This document shows, one piece after another, positions 21,351 through 36,638 of a stretch of 48,266 nt of DNA. A model generated the notes under the pieces. That model searched no databases and had not been told where the DNA came from. It worked only from the letters and a program-made list of their open reading frames with translations. Position numbers and translations under genes: made by a program. This stretch comes from Candidatus Woesearchaeota archaeon (GTDB lineage: Archaea; Nanobdellota; Nanobdellia; Woesearchaeales; UBA10216), in NCBI GenBank assembly GCA_016188155.1, contig JACPIH010000016.1, positions 1 to 48,266 on the forward strand. The letters are read 5' to 3'. Every line of letters starts with the position of its first letter. Position 1 is the stretch's first letter.

Positions 21351-21360
21351 TTATTTATAT
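21351..21360 (+). promoter_or_regulatory. Putative TATA box and ribosome-binding site of sodN
   Basis: TTATTTATAT predicts a start near 21382. The short leader then carries GGGGTGA at 21383-21389, 5 nt before ATG 21394, so this gene seems to use a Shine-Dalgarno unlike many of its leaderless neighbours. Confidence 0.5.
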
Positions 21361-21393
21361 TTACCAGCCTCAGCAGCCGAAGGGGTGATTTGC

Positions 21394-21837
21394 ATGAAAA
21401 CGGTAACGGGCTTATTCGCTGCTTTGATGAGGAAGTCAGAAAAGTTGCTGGAGCCCTCTCTGGTCTATGCGCATTGCGACATTCCCTGCGGCATTTACGA
21501 GACCAACAGTATGACAACCGCCGCTGATACTGTTGCAAAAATGGTTGAGAAGATTTTGGACCTGAAGGGGATGGAGCTCGTGGACAGGAACAATTTTGTA
21601 AGGATGGTTCACGTCAAGGAAGAGCATGCCCAGAAGTGTAAGCAGGAGCTTCTCATTTTGTGGACTGACTACTTCAAGGATGAGCACCTTGCGAAGTTCC
21701 CGGACCTCCATACAAAGGTTTGGAAGGCAACAAAGCTTTGCTCCCAGGCCAAAAGGACGGTTGACTTAAAGGTTGCCCAGCAGCTGAAGGAAGCCGTTGC
21801 GGACATTGCAAGGATTTTCGCTGAAACGAAGAAGTAG
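21394..21837 (+). CDS. sodN: Nickel superoxide dismutase precursor (SodN)
   Basis: The 147-residue precursor has a 26-residue leader ending SLVYA, followed by HCDIPCGIYE, the nickel hook of Ni-SOD (canonical HCDLPCGVY). After cleavage the mature N-terminus would be H27-C28, with the amino group, H27 imidazole, and C28 and C32 thiolates as nickel ligands. The mature part (121 residues) has the family's helical length of about 117. It dismutates superoxide to oxygen and peroxide. The maturation peptidase gene lies 22 nt downstream. ATG 21394 is chosen for the leader length and the ribosome-binding site; an upstream in-frame extension to 21175 would run through the divergent gene and is rejected. 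Confidence 0.94.
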   Translation: MKTVTGLFAALMRKSEKLLEPSLVYAHCDIPCGIYETNSMTTAADTVAKMVEKILDLKGMELVDRNNFVRMVHVKEEHAQKCKQELLILWTDYFKDEHLAKFPDLHTKVWKATKLCSQAKRTVDLKVAQQLKEAVADIARIFAETKK

Positions 21838-21859
21838 CTTCATTGCAGCGGCGACGAAT

Positions 21860-22156
21860 ATGTTTTCCCGCATTTTCCCTTTTTCCATGCATATTGTCAG
21901 GGGCCACAGCATGCAGCCCAACATCAAGGATGGTGATAGGGTTATTGTTTTCAACTGGGCTTACTTGTTCTCGCGGCCAAAGATCGGAGATGTTGTCGTT
22001 TTCAGCGGCAGCGATGGGAAGGAATATGTAAAAAGAATAACGGCTGCAGCAGCCAAAAACGAATTTGTTGTTGAAGGCGATAACAAGGAGGACAGCAGGA
22101 AAATGCCTCCGGTCAAGAAGAGCGCTATAATTGGCAGAGTCATTGCAAGGTACTAG
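21860..22156 (+). CDS. sodX: Nickel SOD maturation protease (SodX-like S26 peptidase)
   Basis: This 98-residue S26-family serine protease has the nucleophile S17 in GHSMQP and the general base K58 in EYVKRI. GDVVVF and the closing VEGDN motif of the signal-peptidase fold are present. It matches the small peptidases encoded next to Ni-SOD that remove the leader to expose His-Cys. No transmembrane anchor is present except a weak hydrophobic N-terminus (IFPFSMHIV). The start at 21860 avoids the 41-nt overlap with sodN implied by ATG 21797. Placement right after sodN makes the assignment firm. Confidence 0.9.
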   Translation: MFSRIFPFSMHIVRGHSMQPNIKDGDRVIVFNWAYLFSRPKIGDVVVFSGSDGKEYVKRITAAAAKNEFVVEGDNKEDSRKMPPVKKSAIIGRVIARY

Positions 22157-22286: not shown

Positions 22287-22308
22287 GTACTGGATAAAAC
22301 CGTTGGTT

Positions 22309-22893
22309 ATGAAGAAAGTAACAAGATTGAAAGGCGTATCGCCAGAAGAAGAACTAGTGGCTTATCACAAAGTGGTTTCTTGGTTCTTTGCTTACCCCAG
22401 GGAAGAGTTTACGTTAAATGAGCTTTGCTCACAAGTTGGAATGTCAAAGACTACAGGCAAGATGGTAGTAATGCGATTAATTGCCCAGATGTTCCTGAAA
22501 TTTAATGTCATAGGAAGATTATGGAGGATAAGTGCGAATCAGAGCCACAGTTATTTTACAACGAGAAAAATTGCAGAGAATCTCAGGCTTGTTTATGAGT
22601 CCGGAGTGTTGGAAGAGGTAAATGAGCGTTATCCTCAAGCGCTTGCTGTTGTTCTTTTTGGAAGTTACAGGAAGGGAGATGACGTTAGGGAAAGTGATTT
22701 AGATTTGGCCATAGAGGTTTTGGGGAATGAAGAGCTTCAAATTATTGAGTTGGGAATTATAACAAAGCTCGGGTATCGGGAAAACGTCAAAGTAAATGTT
22801 CACGTTTTCACAAGAAATAAAATTGACATCAACTTATTCACTAATGTAGCTAACGGCATTTTGCTGCGGGGGCTTTTGGAGGCAAGGCCATGA
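22309..22893 (+). CDS. wHTH-fused minimal nucleotidyltransferase (MNT antitoxin-like)
   Basis: This 194-residue protein has a winged helix at about residues 30-75 (FTLNELCSQVGMSKTTGKMVV). A minimal nucleotidyltransferase domain follows with the catalytic motif FGSYRKGDDVRESDLDLAI near residue 115 (GS...SDLD), and a third candidate acidic site lies further on. MNT proteins paired with HEPN RNases act as antitoxins, some by AMPylating the HEPN partner. It overlaps the HEPN gene by 4 nt. The fused winged helix suggests it also represses its own operon through the palindromes upstream. Confidence 0.85.
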   Translation: MKKVTRLKGVSPEEELVAYHKVVSWFFAYPREEFTLNELCSQVGMSKTTGKMVVMRLIAQMFLKFNVIGRLWRISANQSHSYFTTRKIAENLRLVYESGVLEEVNERYPQALAVVLFGSYRKGDDVRESDLDLAIEVLGNEELQIIELGIITKLGYRENVKVNVHVFTRNKIDINLFTNVANGILLRGLLEARP

Positions 22894-23297
22894 TTAGAAG
22901 CAGGGTGCCAGATAAGGTAAAGGCAAGAAGCATGCTAACAGCTGCTGTGACTGATATGCGGTTTGTAGAAAAGCTTCCAGTCACTTCAGAATCAACATTA
23001 TCAATAATTCGCGGAGTATACGAGGATTTCAGAATGCTCGGAGACGCTTTGCTTACCGCAGGAGGGAGTGAGGCTGAGGGAATTGACCATCACTTCGAGA
23101 TGATTAATGCGCTCATGAAGCTTCAGACAAAAGCGCCACGTTCATTGCTTGTTCTGCACGAATTAAGAAAACTCAGGCACAAAATAAATTATCAGGGCTA
23201 CATCCCTACTGAAGATGAAGCGAAATACGCGCTCTCAATCAAGGAAGCTTTGTGGCTCCCGTTACTCGAGGAAGTGAAAAAGAGTATAGAGAAATAG
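22890..23297 (+). CDS. HEPN domain protein (toxin-like partner of MNT)
   Basis: This 135-residue all-helical protein resembles HEPN proteins. The conserved C-terminal motif is LRKLRHKINYQGY, with R-x3-H rather than the classical R-x4-6-H of active HEPN RNases. The paired, 4-nt overlapping MNT gene supports a toxin-antitoxin role. Because the active motif is atypical, RNase activity is uncertain. It ends 2 nt from the 3' end of the convergent tRNA-Gln gene. Confidence 0.75.
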   Translation: MIRSRVPDKVKARSMLTAAVTDMRFVEKLPVTSESTLSIIRGVYEDFRMLGDALLTAGGSEAEGIDHHFEMINALMKLQTKAPRSLLVLHELRKLRHKINYQGYIPTEDEAKYALSIKEALWLPLLEEVKKSIEK

Positions 23298-24864: not shown

Positions 24865-27800
24865 TTGGGTAAAAAGAGGCATTTACTGGTATTACTGGCG
24901 CTGTTTCTGCTTCTTGCATCTATGAATGTTTACGCTGTAACCTATGTTGCAAGGGTGCAGGCTTCGCTGGATAAGTCGCTTTACGGCCCTAATGAGGAGA
25001 TGCACCTGAGCGGCAGTGTTTCATTAAGCAACTTATCAGCCAACGATACGGGCTTTTTTGCTGTTGCTAACAGAAACGCCTCCATAAACTTCACGTTGGA
25101 AAACGCTTCTGGCGTTCAGGTTCAGCACCTTCTTAACACATCCGGTGACGGCAGCTTCAAGTCAAGAAGCGACAACTTCCCTGCCGGCATCCAGATCAAT
25201 GCGCCTGTTGCAGAAGGCTATTACAATTTCACTGTTGTTTATACCGACCTGAACGGTGACTTGTGGAAGGTAGGCGGTGTTGTGCGCGTTTTTGGCACTT
25301 CCATTGACTACATCTCAATAAGCCCAGAGTCAGCAAGGTATTACGCAGGTGATACTGTGCCCATTAACTTGAGGGCTTTGAGGGAAGTTGGCGACAGGAA
25401 GGTTGCCCTTGCCAACGTTAGCATTAACGGCTCTATTCGTTACACAAACCGCACTGCGATTTCAACCTTTTCCTGCATCACTAATGCCGGGGGTGTTTGC
25501 GTTGCAAGGGTAACTGCGCCTTCAAGGGCAGGCACTTACATTCTTGAGGTGAACAATTTTCTCAGCACATCCTCTTTCGTTGTTGTGCCTTTTGAGGCGT
25601 TTGTTTACGTGAAGGACTCGACAGGTGAGAGCTTTAAGGAGATTTTTAAGGCTAATGAAATCGCGACTATTGAGGCCAAGGCCTTGTTTAATGGCACTAA
25701 TCCTGACGGGGAGTTTGTTTTCAACGGCACAATAACCGATGCCGGCAGCAATGTTGTGGCAAATATTACTTCCACCAGCCTCAACAGCAATAACTCTTAC
25801 ACCAACAGGTTTTCATTTACAATCTCGAACGTGTTCACCAACGGGGTATACTATGTTTCCGTTACTGTTTATAAGACAGGAGGCGGCAAAGTTTCCGCAT
25901 CTACCTCTTTTCAGGTGAGGTCGTGGACTTTGTCAGTCAACAAGGCATCGAAGGACTCTGGCTTTGAGTACGAGTACACGGCTTTCGCGAACAAGAATGT
26001 TTCTTTTGAAATTTTTCCGAAGGAGTCTGAAAACGGCACGGTTATCACAGGCCTTAACAGCACCCAGTTTAACATAACGCTTAGCGGCAAGACCGGAGAC
26101 GTGCTTGCAGTGGGCAATGCTAGCTGGAATGCCTCGTGCAGCAGCTCAGGCTGCTACACCTTTGGCATGTCAATGCCCACAGCTGCTGGAAGGTACGTCT
26201 TGGCTGTTGCGCTTAATTACACCAGCGATGTGCAGACTGTTCACAGGCTTATCAGCGTGACAACGACCTCGCTCTCGGCAACTCCAACAAGCCAGGATGG
26301 CCAGCTTAAGGAGGTCTTTGGCACCACAGAGTTTGTTTACGTCAGCCTTACTGCTAAAAACCAGACCTCTTCGGTTAATATAAGTGACGTTCTAATTGAG
26401 TCTGTTGCTTATGAGAACGGGACAAAGTTCAGCTTCAGTGAGCTCTCTTCGTGGAGCGATATTAACTCTAGCAATTCCGCTTTGGAGTGGGCTTGGAACG
26501 GCTCGGCCCAGCGCATAAAGCTTGACGCCCCTAAGGTTGGCGGGAATTATCTTATCACTGTTTTTGCCAGCAACAGGTCTGCCGCGGCAAGCACGAAGTT
26601 TGGCATTAACCCGTACTCTGTGTGCGGCGCAGCCAAAAGCACAGCAGGCAGCGTTGATAGCTCAAGCAGCTTTTACGTCTGGCAGTACAAGACAACAGAC
26701 ACAGTCTACTTTGAGCTTAAGGTCTCACAGGCCCAAAATGGTCTTGGAAGGGCGGCTGCTTCTGGGAACGGCACTTTCAACAGTGCCAATTACGGCATGG
26801 GCAGCGCCTGCCAGCTTGACACAACAAAATCGCAGGCGATAACGAACGCCACAATTACGGTAGAAAGTGTCGTGAACCTGCAGAGTGGGGCAAAGATTGC
26901 CCTTAACACCTCCGCATCCACTTGTTCTGCAGACGACAACTCAGGAACTTACACATGCACTGTTAAGCCGGAAACAAAGTGGGATGGCGGCAGGTACTCG
27001 GTTAAGATTCAGGTTACAGGGCCTGATGGCGAGACAAAGGACAAGGCTGAAAGCATATTTGAGGCAAGGGCTTTCTACCTGTGGGCTTACACCAATTCCT
27101 GGACCAACAAGCCGGACAGCAACATAACCTTCAATTTGCAATTGTACGAGGCCGGAACCAATTGGTGGAGCAACTACGGCAGCAACAGCGGCGGCATCAC
27201 AGGAGAAGTAGCCATACAGAAGGTTGAGTACAACGGCAAGGAGGGCGAATGGCTCTGGCCCCCGATTGACATAGGCTATAACACAACCGGCCTTAATGCC
27301 TCCAATGTCACGAGTGGCAGGGGCTCTTTTACGCTTTCAACCGCCCGGCTCCCGAAAGGAAGGTGGGAGCCGGGCTATTACATTGCAACCATTAAGGGCA
27401 CAAACACGGCTACTGGCGAGAGCGATTACGGGACTGCGTGGTTTGGCATAAAGCAGTGGGACGCTTACTCTACGCCAGTTGAGCAGTCAGGCAGCTCTTA
27501 CGCCTACAAGAACTCTTTCAGCATCAAGGAGAACGTCTCGCTCTACATCCGCATAACAAACGCCGGTGACTATAACGATAACGGCGGCACAAACCTGGCT
27601 GGCGGGGGGAACATTGTTGTTGGCATCAAGAAGCTGCAGTACTACACAACGTGGCCTCCTACCGAGCTTAACACAAGCGCTTACACTGTTGGCAAGATTA
27701 ACGTAAGCACCTCAAGCCCGTGGTATTCCAACGCCAACCCCCCAGCCACGTATGCAAAATACATTATGAATATCAGCCCGACAAGCGGGAGGTGGAACGG

Positions 27801-28212
27801 CGGCTACTACAATGTTATCCTTGACATCAACGGAACTGAAACCGGGTATGGCTGGTTCAACGTTATTGCTTTTAACGTCAACACCCAGCCAATGAATGCC
27901 AGCGGAACTTACACTTACACCAGCAAGGGCAACGGCCCCGTGTACTTTAACGTTACAACAACGAAGAATCAGAAATCCAGTTACAGCTATTACAGCTCTG
28001 GCGACTACATAAACACGACAGTTAAGGATGTTGTCCTGAGGACGTGGCTGGAAAGCACCTGGCAGACCGTTGAGTATAACTATCCTGAAGACCTGAACGT
28101 CTCGCCTTTGCAGGTCAACGGCACTGCCCTTCTCCAAGTTAACAAGACAGGCAACTGGCAAGGCAGCCGGACTGGTCGAATAACAACCTTGTTCTCGGGA
28201 ACTACACAGTAA
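24865..28212 (+). CDS. Giant secreted surface protein, N-terminal part (frameshifted)
   Basis: The 1,115 codons start with a signal peptide (KKRHLLVLLALFLLLASMNVYA) from a TTG start preceded by AGGTG. The rest is a series of beta-sandwich-like domains, very rich in N-X-S/T sequons, Ser and Thr, without enzyme motifs. Recurrent patterns include segments like GRYVLAVALNYT, GGNYLITVFAS and GYYIATIKG at the end of each domain. It is probably a cell-surface or S-layer-associated glycoprotein. The reading frame stops at 28212, but coding-like sequence continues without a break in the -1 frame from at least 28143. The two ORFs look like one protein of roughly 1,885 residues. Confidence 0.82.
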   Translation: MGKKRHLLVLLALFLLLASMNVYAVTYVARVQASLDKSLYGPNEEMHLSGSVSLSNLSANDTGFFAVANRNASINFTLENASGVQVQHLLNTSGDGSFKSRSDNFPAGIQINAPVAEGYYNFTVVYTDLNGDLWKVGGVVRVFGTSIDYISISPESARYYAGDTVPINLRALREVGDRKVALANVSINGSIRYTNRTAISTFSCITNAGGVCVARVTAPSRAGTYILEVNNFLSTSSFVVVPFEAFVYVKDSTGESFKEIFKANEIATIEAKALFNGTNPDGEFVFNGTITDAGSNVVANITSTSLNSNNSYTNRFSFTISNVFTNGVYYVSVTVYKTGGGKVSASTSFQVRSWTLSVNKASKDSGFEYEYTAFANKNVSFEIFPKESENGTVITGLNSTQFNITLSGKTGDVLAVGNASWNASCSSSGCYTFGMSMPTAAGRYVLAVALNYTSDVQTVHRLISVTTTSLSATPTSQDGQLKEVFGTTEFVYVSLTAKNQTSSVNISDVLIESVAYENGTKFSFSELSSWSDINSSNSALEWAWNGSAQRIKLDAPKVGGNYLITVFASNRSAAASTKFGINPYSVCGAAKSTAGSVDSSSSFYVWQYKTTDTVYFELKVSQAQNGLGRAAASGNGTFNSANYGMGSACQLDTTKSQAITNATITVESVVNLQSGAKIALNTSASTCSADDNSGTYTCTVKPETKWDGGRYSVKIQVTGPDGETKDKAESIFEARAFYLWAYTNSWTNKPDSNITFNLQLYEAGTNWWSNYGSNSGGITGEVAIQKVEYNGKEGEWLWPPIDIGYNTTGLNASNVTSGRGSFTLSTARLPKGRWEPGYYIATIKGTNTATGESDYGTAWFGIKQWDAYSTPVEQSGSSYAYKNSFSIKENVSLYIRITNAGDYNDNGGTNLAGGGNIVVGIKKLQYYTTWPPTELNTSAYTVGKINVSTSSPWYSNANPPATYAKYIMNISPTSGRWNGGYYNVILDINGTETGYGWFNVIAFNVNTQPMNASGTYTYTSKGNGPVYFNVTTTKNQKSSYSYYSSGDYINTTVKDVVLRTWLESTWQTVEYNYPEDLNVSPLQVNGTALLQVNKTGNWQGSRTGRITTLFSGTTQ

Positions 28213-30524
28213 CGCAGGTGTACGAGGACATATGGTCAGGCTCAGGAAGGAGCAGAACCTCGTACACAAACTACCGCCCAAGTAGCAATGAATGGTTTAA
28301 CGCCACAACAAAGCTTAACATAACGCCTTCGGGCACGTGGAACTCTGCCAATAACGGTTACCACTACCTGAACATTGTTGTGAGGGACAACAACGACAAC
28401 ACCACCCAGAACGGCTGGGTGTCTTTCAGGAGCGTTCCTTACTCAATCAGCATTGGAAGCGTGCAAAGCCAGAACTCTGTTTCGCAAACCAGCAACGCCA
28501 CAGTGCCTGTTACTGTTACCAAGGCCACCTCTGGCGTGCCAACTCCAGCCAACCTTTCCAGAGCTTTCGAGTGGACTTACCCAACGCAGACAGAATACGG
28601 CTTTGCAGTTGGAAACTGCACATCGGCTGTCAACGGAACAGCTTGCCAGGTTAGCGGCGCGCAGAACGTTACCCTCATTCCCCCATCAGGAGGCTGGCCA
28701 AGCGGCTACCACTACATCTACCTTGAATTTGTGTCGCCAAGCGGCGCCAACAAGGTGCAGGCTGACAACAGCGCATGGTTCAATGCTGTGCAGGCATACG
28801 ACGGCTACTTCAGCAATTGGGACGAGGGTGGCCAGTGGAAGTACTACTTCGGCTTTAATGAAAACATAACTATACTGATTTACGTGCGCAATTCCAACTA
28901 CATTCCGCAAAATGTTAATATAACAAAAGTTGAAATGTCCGAAGACGGTGACAACTGCTGGTCAGAGTACTGCAGGGTCTACTCCAACTATTCCTACCAG
29001 GTTCTGAATGGCAGCGGCGGTACTGGTATCGCGGGAAACGGCACGATAAGGATAGTAAAGCCTGCTGCTCAGTGGAAGCGCGGCCAGCACTCTATCAAGG
29101 CAACAATACAGGGCAGCGCAGGGAATGCAGTTATAAAAACGGGCTACGTCTACGTAAAGGACACCGCACTTCCAAACGTTACGATAGTTTCACCGCAAAA
29201 CGGGCAGGTGATAAATACAAGCACGTTCCTGTTTAACGCAACCACTAATGAGGATGCTAGATGCGGCGCAATACTGACGAATTACGACCAATTCTTAAGC
29301 AGCTTCTGCGGGGGGGGCAGCAACATAACAACAGGGCAGGCGTGCAACAGCACAAGGTTCAACGGAAGCACATACTATTACTTGTTTGTAGACTATCCTC
29401 CATTCGGTGGCATGAGCACTGGAGGAAGGGTGCACCACTACAGCTTCAACACTGCTGGCCTTGTTAATCAGGATTACGGAATAAAGGCTAACTGCTATGA
29501 TGTGGACTGGAATTACGCTGCAACATTGGTAGCGTTTACGCTTAACGTTTCAACAACGAATGTTCAGGTTAAAGTAAATCTCTCAAGCCCGGCAAACAAC
29601 TCTGTTGTTAACACGAGCACCGTAACTTTCGATTACAATGCAACAGGACCATCATACTCAAACCTTAACTGCACAGTATACATCAACGTGAGCAGCACCT
29701 TGGCAGCCAATACAAGCAGAAACGTAGCGCTTATCAACTCAACCAACATCACCACCGCAATAAACGTTACTGGCTTTAACAACGGCACGTACATCTGGAA
29801 CACATACTGCTCCGAGACTACGAACGCAACCAACAATGCTTGGGCGCCATCAAACTTTACATTTTCAGTAGCCATAAATTCAACATCGAACAGCAGTAAT
29901 ACAACCCTTACAGCTGTGGGTGTGAACCTTTCAAGCCCGGCAAACAACGCTGTAATGAACTCTTCACCGGTAAATTTCACTTACAACGCTAGCGGACCTG
30001 CATCCATGAGCTGCTCGTTGTGGAGCAACTCGACAGGCGTTTGGAAGGCGAACAGTACAAACACATCAGCAACTCCGGGAGTGCAAAACGTAACACACAA
30101 CTTCGTGAACGGCGCATACGTTTGGAATTCCAGATGCGAGGACAACAGCAACAGCAGCAACTACGCTTTCGCTGCTTTAAACTTCACACTCACTGTAACA
30201 AACCTCACAGGCACCAGCACCACTAGCACAAACATTAGCGTAAACCTCTCAAGCCCAGCAAACGTTTCAACCATTTCAGCAGCGGCCAGTTTCGTTTACA
30301 ACGCAACAGGCGCAGCTTCGCTTGACTGCACAGTCTGGGGAAACTTCACAGGGAGCTGGGCAGCCAACGTGACAAACAACTCGGTCAGTGCTGGCGTAAT
30401 TAGGCATGCGCAGACTGTGAACGTAAGCGGAGGCGTTTACCTCTGGAACGCACAATGCATCAATGCTACCGACAGCACAATATACGGCTGGGGCATATCA
30501 AACTGGACATTCACGAGGTCATGA
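28143..30524 (+). CDS. Giant surface protein, continuation after frameshift
   Basis: This frame is open from 28143 and reads WSNNNLVLGNYTVTQVYEDIW over the stretch where the first ORF gives atypical residues, so it continues the same protein. The C-terminal third has three Ig-like repeats, each beginning VNLSSPAN followed by a YNATG or YNASG strand (about 29575, 29925 and 30240). Sequons are dense. It ends ISNWTFTRS with no membrane anchor or sorting signal. The stop overlaps the start of the next gene as ATGA. An independent start inside this ORF (GTG 28218) is unlikely, as there is no promoter or signal peptide. Confidence 0.78.
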   Translation, partial: QDRQLARQPDWSNNNLVLGNYTVTQVYEDIWSGSGRSRTSYTNYRPSSNEWFNATTKLNITPSGTWNSANNGYHYLNIVVRDNNDNTTQNGWVSFRSVPYSISIGSVQSQNSVSQTSNATVPVTVTKATSGVPTPANLSRAFEWTYPTQTEYGFAVGNCTSAVNGTACQVSGAQNVTLIPPSGGWPSGYHYIYLEFVSPSGANKVQADNSAWFNAVQAYDGYFSNWDEGGQWKYYFGFNENITILIYVRNSNYIPQNVNITKVEMSEDGDNCWSEYCRVYSNYSYQVLNGSGGTGIAGNGTIRIVKPAAQWKRGQHSIKATIQGSAGNAVIKTGYVYVKDTALPNVTIVSPQNGQVINTSTFLFNATTNEDARCGAILTNYDQFLSSFCGGGSNITTGQACNSTRFNGSTYYYLFVDYPPFGGMSTGGRVHHYSFNTAGLVNQDYGIKANCYDVDWNYAATLVAFTLNVSTTNVQVKVNLSSPANNSVVNTSTVTFDYNATGPSYSNLNCTVYINVSSTLAANTSRNVALINSTNITTAINVTGFNNGTYIWNTYCSETTNATNNAWAPSNFTFSVAINSTSNSSNTTLTAVGVNLSSPANNAVMNSSPVNFTYNASGPASMSCSLWSNSTGVWKANSTNTSATPGVQNVTHNFVNGAYVWNSRCEDNSNSSNYAFAALNFTLTVTNLTGTSTTSTNISVNLSSPANVSTISAAASFVYNATGAASLDCTVWGNFTGSWAANVTNNSVSAGVIRHAQTVNVSGGVYLWNAQCINATDSTIYGWGISNWTFTRS

Positions 30525-32098
30525 AAATGAAAAACAAAACTCATAGGGCTTTAATCATACTGGCTGCCGCGATTTTTGCCACTTTAGCGTTTATTCCCCA
30601 GGCACTGGCTTCCCTGCAAGTGACAGGCTTTTCCTGCAACGGCGAAACCGGCACAGTTAATGTGCCAAATAATGTTGCGTTCACCTGCAGCGCCACAATC
30701 AATAACCCTGACGATTCAACTGCCTCGCTTAGCTCTGCCAAGCTGTACATTGATGGAAGCTGGGCCACTCAGTCGTATGACGCTTCAGGGTTCAGCACCT
30801 CTCTTGCGACAGGCGCTTCCTCAACGGCAACCTTTACTGACATAACTTCAACAACCCCGGGCAGCCACAAGTTCTCGTACATCCTGCTTGATGGCGTTTC
30901 AGACACATTTGTTGCTGACACTGTTGTCAATGTCATGGACATCAGGATAGCAAAGGTAAGGACAAACACAACATCAGCAGGGCAGAACGCACCCTTTAAC
31001 GTTATTGCAGAGGTCTCCGCAGGAGGTGCAATGTCAGTTACCACAACCATAGACGTTTCTGACTGCGCTTTGGCAACTGGCGAGCAGGCGTCAAAAACTA
31101 TTGGCTCTTTGACAGAAGGCGCGCAGACCAGCGTTTCCTGGAAGCTTATCATGGGAGCCAACGACTGCAGCTACACGGTGAGCGTGACAGGCACAGGCTC
31201 TGGCAGGGTTAGTGACGATGTTTCAGGCTCTGTCACATCAACAGGAGGAGGCGGAAGCTCTGGCGGCAGCAGCAGTAGCACAGGAGGAGGCGGTGGTGGC
31301 GGAGGCGGAGGAGGCGGTGCAGCTCTTGTTGATGAAAGCGTGCTGCTAAGCTCGATACCTGCTGGAAGCATCGGAACCTTCGCGTTCACCAAGTCAAAGG
31401 ACTTCGCTGTTTACGAAGTGGCGTTCACAGCCAATGTCAATCTGGAAAACGCCAAGCTCATAGTAAAGGAGGCGAGGCTTGCAAGCTCAGCTCCAAGCGC
31501 TTCTGAAAGCGCCAAGGAAGCTGTTTACAAGTATTTCTCAGTGAACAGGGAGAAGGTTAAGAACGAGGAGATAAGTGATGCTAAAATCAGGTTTAAGGTG
31601 CCCAACAGCTACCTTGAGGATGAAAATGTCATCCCCGAAAGCATTGTGCTGAAGAAGCTTGTTAACAACAGCTGGGTTTCAAACCCCACAACGCTGCTTG
31701 GAAGGAGCGGCAGCTTTACCGGCTATGAGGCCAGCGTTTCAGGACTGTCCACATTCGCCATTGTTGGCGAGAAGAAGGCAGGAGCTGTTGTGAAGAAGGT
31801 TGAGCAAAAGGAGGAGGAAACAGCAGCTGAAAAAGCCGCTGCTGAAAGGGCTGCTGAGGAAGCTGCCAGAAAAGCTGCGGAGCAGCAGACACTGGCAGAG
31901 GGGAAAGGCACTGCAAATGCATTACTGGAAAAAGTTGGCGGCTTCAGCTTCGCTGCCAAGGTTGTCTGGACGCTTGTCCTGCTCATTACAGGGGTCTTAA
32001 TAGCTGTTGAGACAATGCATTTCATGCACAGGAAAATGCCGCCTCTAAAGCTGCCAAAGATTCCCCCGCCGCCAACAATGGAAAGGAAGCAAAAGTAG
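30521..32098 (+). CDS. Membrane-anchored PGF-pre-PGF domain protein
   Basis: The 525-residue protein has a signal peptide (HRALIILAAAIFATLAFIPQALA), two predicted beta domains, a Ser/Gly linker at about 235-265 coded by a GGN-rich repeat, and a PGF-pre-PGF domain. The latter runs from IPAGSIGTFAFTKSKDFAVY through VYKYFSVNREKV and IRFKVPNSYLEDENVI to SGLSTFAIVGEK. An Ala/Glu-rich coiled coil then leads to a transmembrane helix (WTLVLLITGVLIAVETMHF) and a Pro-rich cytoplasmic tail. In other archaea this domain precedes an archaeosortase PGF tail; here a plain membrane helix replaces it. ATGA overlap with the giant protein implies a joint surface assembly. Confidence 0.87.
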   Translation: MKMKNKTHRALIILAAAIFATLAFIPQALASLQVTGFSCNGETGTVNVPNNVAFTCSATINNPDDSTASLSSAKLYIDGSWATQSYDASGFSTSLATGASSTATFTDITSTTPGSHKFSYILLDGVSDTFVADTVVNVMDIRIAKVRTNTTSAGQNAPFNVIAEVSAGGAMSVTTTIDVSDCALATGEQASKTIGSLTEGAQTSVSWKLIMGANDCSYTVSVTGTGSGRVSDDVSGSVTSTGGGGSSGGSSSSTGGGGGGGGGGGGAALVDESVLLSSIPAGSIGTFAFTKSKDFAVYEVAFTANVNLENAKLIVKEARLASSAPSASESAKEAVYKYFSVNREKVKNEEISDAKIRFKVPNSYLEDENVIPESIVLKKLVNNSWVSNPTTLLGRSGSFTGYEASVSGLSTFAIVGEKKAGAVVKKVEQKEEETAAEKAAAERAAEEAARKAAEQQTLAEGKGTANALLEKVGGFSFAAKVVWTLVLLITGVLIAVETMHFMHRKMPPLKLPKIPPPPTMERKQK

Positions 32099-35547: not shown

Positions 35548-35645
35548 TTTTGTGAGCCGTGCCCCGGGCTTCTGCTGGTGCGTGGCAGTGCCAGCAGTAT
35601 CGCAAAATTTTTAAACACCCAAACGGCATTAAATGCTGTTGCTTT

Positions 35646-36638
35646 ATGGATTACATTACCCTTAGAAAAGAGGTTATTGATGCGGGCCTTCTGGACAGGC
35701 AGTACGGCTACTATGCGTTTAAGATTGTTTCTTCCCTGTTAATGGTTATTGTGCCAGGCTTTCTCTTCCTGGCTGTATCAAGCTTCTGGATGCAGCTGCT
35801 TCTCATATTTGGCATTACGGTTGGTATTTTGCAGTTCGCTTTCCTGGGGCATGACGCCGGCCACAAGGCAATTTTCAAGAGCGACAGGTGTAACAACTTT
35901 TTTGGCCACATCTTTTTTGAGTTTTTCGGGGGGGTTGGCTACAATTACTGGGTTACCAGGCATAACGAGCATCACGCCAGCCCGAACCACGAGGACGAGG
36001 ACCCTGACATGATTTTTGTCCAGTCTGAGGGCATGATGGCAAGGAAGAAGGGTCTCGGCCTGTTCCTTGCAAGGAGGCAGCACTGGCTTTACTTTCCGGC
36101 CCTAAGCATGTACGCGCTTGTGTTTCAGGTCAGGAGCACCATCCATAATATAAAGCTGAAGAATTCTTTTGATAAATGGGCTGAGCTGGTGCTGTTGACG
36201 TCCCATTTGGCTGTTTTCTGGATGTTGCCTTTTTTCTTTATGGCATGGTGGAAGGCGCTTCTGTTTGTTCCGCTGCTCAGGATACTTGAGGGGCTTTACT
36301 TTGGCTCTGTCTCTGCAACCAACCACAAGGGCATGAGGGTGGTGAAGAAGGGCGAGCAGCTTGACTTTGTTGAGAAGCAGGTTCTTACTGCCAGAAATTT
36401 GAGGAGCGGCATAGTTGTTGACTTTGTTTATGGCGGCCTGAACTACCAGATAGAGCACCACCTCTTTCCAACAATGCCCAGAAACAACTTCAAGAAGTGC
36501 AAGCCCGTTGTGATGCAATTCTGTAAGGAAAGGGGCCTTCCGTACGTTGAAACGGGCGTTTTCAGGTCTTACAGGATTATCCTTGGAGAGCTAAGGAAGG
36601 TCGCTAAGTCTAGGCCTGCAAGGACAATGGCAATTTAG
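35646..36638 (+). CDS. Fatty acid desaturase-like membrane enzyme
   Basis: The 330-residue integral membrane protein has the three histidine boxes of the fatty acid desaturase superfamily: GHDAGH near residue 70, RHNEHHASPNH near 105, and NYQIEHHLFP near 270. The QIEHH form is typical of front-end and acyl-lipid desaturases. Hydrophobic spans lie between them (about 28-75 and 175-215). These residues bind a di-iron centre that uses O2. Archaeal membranes are isoprenoid, so the substrate is unclear: host-derived fatty acids, carotenoid-like or isoprenoid lipids. ATG 35646 is chosen over 35559 because the TATA-like TTTTTAAA at 35608-35615 lies between them. Confidence 0.85.
   Translation: MDYITLRKEVIDAGLLDRQYGYYAFKIVSSLLMVIVPGFLFLAVSSFWMQLLLIFGITVGILQFAFLGHDAGHKAIFKSDRCNNFFGHIFFEFFGGVGYNYWVTRHNEHHASPNHEDEDPDMIFVQSEGMMARKKGLGLFLARRQHWLYFPALSMYALVFQVRSTIHNIKLKNSFDKWAELVLLTSHLAVFWMLPFFFMAWWKALLFVPLLRILEGLYFGSVSATNHKGMRVVKKGEQLDFVEKQVLTARNLRSGIVVDFVYGGLNYQIEHHLFPTMPRNNFKKCKPVVMQFCKERGLPYVETGVFRSYRIILGELRKVAKSRPARTMAI

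Follow-up and report, generated by a model that had tools for sequence, protein, structure and literature searches.

A probably functional cassette for nickel superoxide dismutase in a DPANN archaeon of Woesearchaeota type, and its likely ancestry in a sequence pool of CPR bacteria and DPANN archaea

How did a gene for a nickel superoxide dismutase (Ni-SOD), followed directly by one for a putative maturation protease, come to lie in the genome of an archaeon, and could the pair work there? The question is raised by a stretch of 48,266 nucleotides, hereafter the window, from the draft genome of a Woesearchaeota-type DPANN archaeon (1.08 Mb in 41 contigs, 88.7% complete, 3.86% contamination). 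Our analysis indicates that the window very probably carries a working Ni-SOD cassette with ancestry in a pool of CPR and DPANN sequences, and that SodN was exchanged later in some relatives; the activity, the cleavage of the precursor, the nickel binding, and the direction of transfer are what we infer from sequence. The features of the cassette are the following.

21354-21360, plus strand: TATA box of the cassette, TTTATAT, roughly 40 nt ahead of the start codon of sodN (read from the sequence and its relatives)
21382-21389, plus strand: archaeal-type ribosome-binding site of sodN, GGGGTGAT (read from the sequence)
21394-21837, plus strand: sodN, nickel superoxide dismutase precursor of 147 aa (TIGR02753, Sod_Ni, PDB match, AlphaFold model)
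21394-21471, plus strand: 26-residue leader ending in VYA, with predicted cleavage before His27 (His27 aligns with the first residue of mature 1q0d)
21472-21498, plus strand: nickel hook HCDIPCGIY, residues 27-35 (invariant positions in relatives)
21860-22156, plus strand: sodX, S26-family Ser/Lys protease of 98 aa with no membrane helix (Peptidase_S26, TIGR02754, fold, position)
21908-21910, plus strand: codon of the catalytic Ser17 of sodX, in GHSMQP (invariant in 29 aligned relatives)
22031-22033, plus strand: codon of the catalytic Lys58 of sodX, in YVKR (invariant in 29 aligned relatives)

The product of sodN, which starts with ATG, passes both the curated sodN equivalog model TIGR02753 (148.9 bits, cut-off 90) and Pfam Sod_Ni (PF09055; 145 bits, cut-off 25). 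Its closest solved structures are the Ni-SODs of Streptomyces (E 5e-20), with an alignment that begins at His1 of the mature protein. It resembles Streptomyces SodN (1q0d, 1t6u) in having a leader followed by HCDxPCGxY and a four-helix bundle, and it aligns over the whole mature length at about 34-37% identity, but the loop between helices 1 and 2 is longer in the archaeal protein and Glu17 of Streptomyces is not conserved, its place being taken by Ala. The AlphaFold model, which averages a pLDDT of 89 and places the free hook poorly, superposes on the Ni-SOD 1t6u with a TM score of 0.88 by target length; the top 16 Foldseek matches are all Ni-SODs, nothing but Ni-SOD structures reaches significant E-values, and the predicted subunit is the right-handed four-helix bundle characteristic of the family. 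Among 22 relatives, hook residues 27, 28, 29, 31, 32, 33, and 35 are invariant, as is the Ala at position -1 of the leader. In Ni-SODs, which are hexamers, the metal is bound via Cys28 and Cys32 (numbering used here) together with His27 and the amine at the N-terminus. The SodN sequence holds every residue that this established mechanism needs, and sodN, as judged from its sequence and predicted structure, encodes a genuine and complete Ni-SOD precursor, with the coordinates, leader length, and full hook that the initial annotation had given it. SodX is described as an activator of Ni-SOD that acts by cleavage of the preprotein (PMC8346466). Here the soluble Ser/Lys protease would cut the precursor after VYA (Ala26) and turn His27 into the N-terminus, the freed His-Cys-X-X-Pro-Cys hook would bind nickel, and the assembled enzyme would dismutate superoxide to O2 and H2O2.

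Where such a protein came from is a matter of its nearest relatives. In a search of a genome collection, the closest named relatives were Woesearchaeota genomes from groundwater, and the nearest non-archaeal ones among the best 80 matches were CPR bacteria at 49-63% identity, namely Terrybacteria, Daviesbacteria, Levybacteria, Roizmanbacteria, Saccharibacteria, and Peregrinibacteria. The CPR systems (Saccharibacteria, Peregrinibacteria, and Microgenomates groups), which give the highest bacterial identities, also have co-directional sodN and sodX and a short soluble SodX; they differ in host domain and neighbouring genes, and the archaeal loci have archaeal TATA boxes. A tree of 91 of the most similar sequences (131 columns, covering the nearest neighbourhood) places the SodN of the window in a clade with Saccharibacteria and Peregrinibacteria (support 100/95), inside which DPANN of the same family, a family of the same order, and one Aenigmatarchaeota genome group with Peregrinibacteria (98/86). 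A second archaeal type, here called the DPH type, forms a separate clade (99/99) with members of the same class and a Heimdallarchaeota sequence; G009, G017, and G018 of the window's own family carry it. Proteins of the DPH type have the same hook and, in these three genomes, an adjacent SodX, but their mature parts are only 38-50% identical to that of the window and end in an extra 20-residue C-terminal tail.

Tree tests reject a single clade for the SodN of the window's family (p 5e-39), and with it a single vertical lineage of Ni-SOD within that family. A single clade of all archaeal SodN is marginally rejected (p 0.048, in a test chosen after the tree was seen). For the window's clade, the tests do not reject archaeal exclusivity (p 0.18); the nesting of Peregrinibacteria among Archaea, although present in the tree, is not significant by the same test and we do not claim it. 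The trees are consistent with a SodN ancestry common to CPR bacteria and DPANN archaea and involving lateral transfer, which may have gone in either direction. The lateral transfer proposed in the initial annotation is borne out as a bacterial connection, but the nearest bacteria are CPR/Patescibacteria and not the actinobacteria or cyanobacteria that had been named. Enzyme and protease would both have a bacterial-type ancestry within the sequence pool common to the two groups, and the cassette would have entered the archaeal family long enough ago to have acquired expression signals of archaeal kind and a fixed place in the chromosome. As to vehicles, a plasmid was discarded, with just two distant matches in a plasmid collection, and so was a virus, the two predicted viral contigs with sodN (49-50% identity) having, as far as the check went, no relation to the archaeal clade. 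One predicted viral contig, IMGVR_UViG_3300038520_001840, has a complete SodN precursor adjoining a nuclease-like gene (L137, 1239-1667), a possible case of virus-borne Ni-SOD.

The histories of the two genes part within the family. In genera g7 and g3, the genomes G013, G018, and G009 have the flanks of the cassette in common on both sides, at 62-91% identity (L134, 12892-13586, against L114, L115, and L120), and G017, whose contig starts at sodN, has one flank in common with them. The SodX proteins of these four genomes form one clade (99/99). Their SodN proteins do not: the G013 protein belongs to the type seen in the window and is 38-43% identical to those of G018, G017, and G009, which are 72-78% identical to one another, and a clade of all four is rejected (p 8e-4). 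The window's genus has the same discord between SodN and SodX in a milder form, as read from identities and trees. Mature SodN of G004 and G007 is 93% and 92% identical to that of the window, with 87-88% for the neighbouring phosphoribosyltransferase, whereas G001 and G006 have 62% and 55% for SodN and 75% for the phosphoribosyltransferase; the SodX tree unites the genus (95/89) and a single clade of its SodN is disfavoured (p 0.025). The simplest reading of these sequences, and a well-supported one, is that mature SodN was replaced at a fixed locus in some relatives, with SodX and the promoter kept in place. Intact flanks to either side, and the recurrence of the pattern in two genomes from a different genus, make a chimeric assembly an unlikely source of it.

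The main rival to such a replacement is an old duplication, after which the two types of SodN were lost differentially. Paralogy can mimic transfer, and both types do occur within one family and even one genus. However, no family genome carries a second sodN copy, and the bacterial relatives of the two types are distant. The variable SodN, moreover, occupies one and the same locus, with an unchanged SodX and unchanged flanks next to it, an arrangement that the loss of one tandem copy would have had to recreate repeatedly. We regard duplication and loss as unlikely. Replacement of SodN at the locus may have spared the leader too: that of G013 is 55-60% identical to those of its genus-mates against 23-36% on the side of the SodN donors, and the DNA of its leader and of the TATA box before it can be aligned with that of the genus-mates, a hint, from about 20 residues, that the leader was retained. 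A more elaborate model, which we offer tentatively and to which we give somewhat less than an even chance, is that promoter, leader, and SodX form a host-inherited 'socket', in which mature Ni-SOD domains from a cross-domain DPANN-CPR pool were swapped at the conserved hook. Within this model, the retention of the leader, the hook as crossover point, and a pool open in both directions are less well supported than the swap of SodN itself.

The second gene, sodX, begins 22 bp downstream of sodN and its product scores 60.7 bits against Peptidase_S26. Against the Ni-SOD protease model TIGR02754 it scores 50.3 bits, under the cut-off of 63.25, and we therefore call it SodX-like by position, dyad, and fold. 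The Ser/Lys dyad of the initial annotation was recovered, Ser17 and Lys58 being the residues invariant in the relatives, with the caveat of that sub-threshold score. The predicted fold matches the bacterial signal peptidases SpsB and SipA, and LexA. Could it be a general or unrelated S26 protease, with another peptidase maturing SodN? The signal peptidase I model TIGR02227 outscores TIGR02754, and some members of the class have their S26 gene 238-1009 bp away from sodN or have none found nearby, which fits such a view, but TIGR02227 covers only 62 of its 162 positions whereas TIGR02754 is matched end to end (positions 3-89 of 90), and all 29 relatives match it at E 0.001 or better. Furthermore, sodX lies immediately 3' of sodN in 14 of the 14 family genomes with sodN, the window's genome counted. 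On another contig the genome encodes its housekeeping archaeal signal peptidase, distinct from SodX in having a Ser/His dyad (SDSM...IHRAV) and a membrane helix, so SodX would be an additional protease of bacterial type; its score against the archaeal signal peptidase I model TIGR02228 (28.3 bits, cut-off 51.85) and its Lys in place of His set it outside that group. An unrelated protease strikes us as distinctly improbable, more so than the duplication considered above.

Beyond the family, the arrangement of the two genes varies. In the class-mate loci L020, L021, and L025, a gap of 238-1009 bp separates sodN and the SodX-like gene, as opposed to the tight pair of the window's family, and in L023 a SodX-like gene was not found within about 1.4 kb downstream of sodN. 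In L052, L060, L065, L075, and other Chloroflexota (SAR202 and related), the S26 gene is upstream of sodN on the opposite strand, and the protease has a longer signal-peptidase-like insert in its sequence.

The setting of the cassette is archaeal. Archaeal genes flank it on either side within the 48 kb contig, on which profile searches identified an archaeal Nre protein and an archaeal alanyl-tRNA synthetase (879.7 bits, far over the model cut-off). Four further genomes of the genus (G001, G004, G006, and G007) preserve the arrangement phosphoribosyltransferase, zinc-finger-like gene, sodN, sodX, and in two of them (G001 and G007) Nre lies beyond the block. Expression signals agree with this setting across 16 archaeal loci: in most of them a T-rich TATA element, often AGCAAATTTTTTATAT, lies 37-54 nt ahead of the start, and nearly all have GGTGAT or a close variant before the start. 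The initial annotation had placed an Ni-SOD and protease pair in an archaeal context, and these neighbours and the synteny uphold it; it had also named a break in coverage or composition as a sign of bacterial contamination, and we found no GC break at the two genes relative to the rest of the window, the GC content and codon use of both falling within the window's own range. Although the host assembly is a draft (41 contigs, 3.86% contamination) and bacteria are the nearest non-archaeal relatives of the cassette, bacterial DNA binned or co-assembled with the archaeal genome is a very unlikely source, since the expression signals are archaeal and the same neighbours recur in the four independently assembled genomes of the genus, and we set it aside on synteny, archaeal neighbours on both sides of the 48 kb contig, ordinary composition, and archaeal expression signals.

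The gene is common in the family and sparse around it: sodN is present in 13 of the 18 other genomes of the family, in none of 40 genomes sampled outside the family but within the order, and in 18 of 371 genomes drawn from the phylum, among them one further family belonging to the order and several members of the same class. In two genomes of the family, G003 and G005, sodN was not found, but the contig of G005 ends about 50 bp past the zinc-finger-like gene, where sodN would begin, and G003 has no match to the phosphoribosyltransferase either, and we dropped the idea that they prove loss.

Searches suggested in the initial annotation found neither Fe/Mn-SOD (PF02777) nor superoxide reductase (PF01880) in the host genome (88.7% complete) or in the 11 family-mates searched, and the same host genome yielded no Cu/Zn-SOD (PF00080), catalase, rubrerythrin, or haem-copper oxidase. 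Since no other SOD or superoxide reductase was found, Ni-SOD is probably the host's only SOD and its sole superoxide-removing enzyme, with absences that are provisional in a draft of this completeness. A reduced and probably symbiotic archaeon would then rely on nickel alone for the removal of superoxide. The initial annotation also proposed that the host is exposed to oxygen, which the cassette may indicate; against it can be set the haem-copper oxidase that the searches did not find. Five AhpC-TSA matches were considered as peroxide defence and rejected: four are thioredoxin-like, three of them with a WCxxC motif, and one is an unassigned redoxin. Elsewhere in the genome, two CcdA-like genes (L125 and L126) each adjoin a lipoprotein-like thioredoxin, an extracytoplasmic thiol pathway that this reduced genome has in duplicate.

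The rarity of archaeal Ni-SOD that the initial annotation implied does not hold, as the enzyme has been published in marine group II (MGII), where it was attributed to transfer from bacteria (PMC10783094), in Lutacidiplasmatales (PMC9287336), in heterotrophic marine Nitrososphaerota (HMN), by transfer from bacteria (PMC13374868), and as scattered sequences in Nanoarchaeota, Aenigmarchaeota, and Woesearchaeota (PMC10783094, PMC9287336, PMC13374868). The MGII enzyme was reported as sister to Cyanobacteria (PMC10783094), whereas the window's clade groups with CPR bacteria in a tree that leaves MGII sequences out. What is new here is the CPR affinity of this SodN and the history of its swaps; the cassette is otherwise an ordinary Ni-SOD system, of a kind already recorded sporadically in its archaeal lineage, and archaeal Ni-SOD itself was already known. 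The literature searched, with most subscription papers outside its scope, gave no account of Ni-SOD shared between CPR and DPANN or of a swap with a retained SodX. There is a precedent in RuBisCO, for which lateral transfer between CPR and DPANN is described (Jaffe et al. 2019, as cited in PMC9875498), and the superoxide defence of DPANN archaea may be tied to that of CPR bacteria in the same manner. As a natural experiment, the swap of SodN beside a conserved protease may also tell whether it is the leader or hook, and not the body of the enzyme, that SodX recognises.

Other genes of the window deserve mention. Between sodX and Nre, at 22303-23297, there is a pair made of a nucleotidyltransferase and a helical protein, MNT/HEPN-like and with a weak match to the MntA antitoxin, which looks recently inserted because its GC content (0.40) is the lowest of the annotated genes of the window and because it is absent at the same place in G007. 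A membrane protein resembling fatty-acid desaturases and hydroxylases (35559-36638) is weakly matched by models for desaturase and for carotenoid hydroxylase; the family normally uses O2, and the host is an archaeon without fatty-acid membranes. Finally, three large, secreted, repeat-rich proteins are encoded in tandem at 24865-32098; they occupy the same place in G007, at 63-70% identity, and are probably surface proteins.
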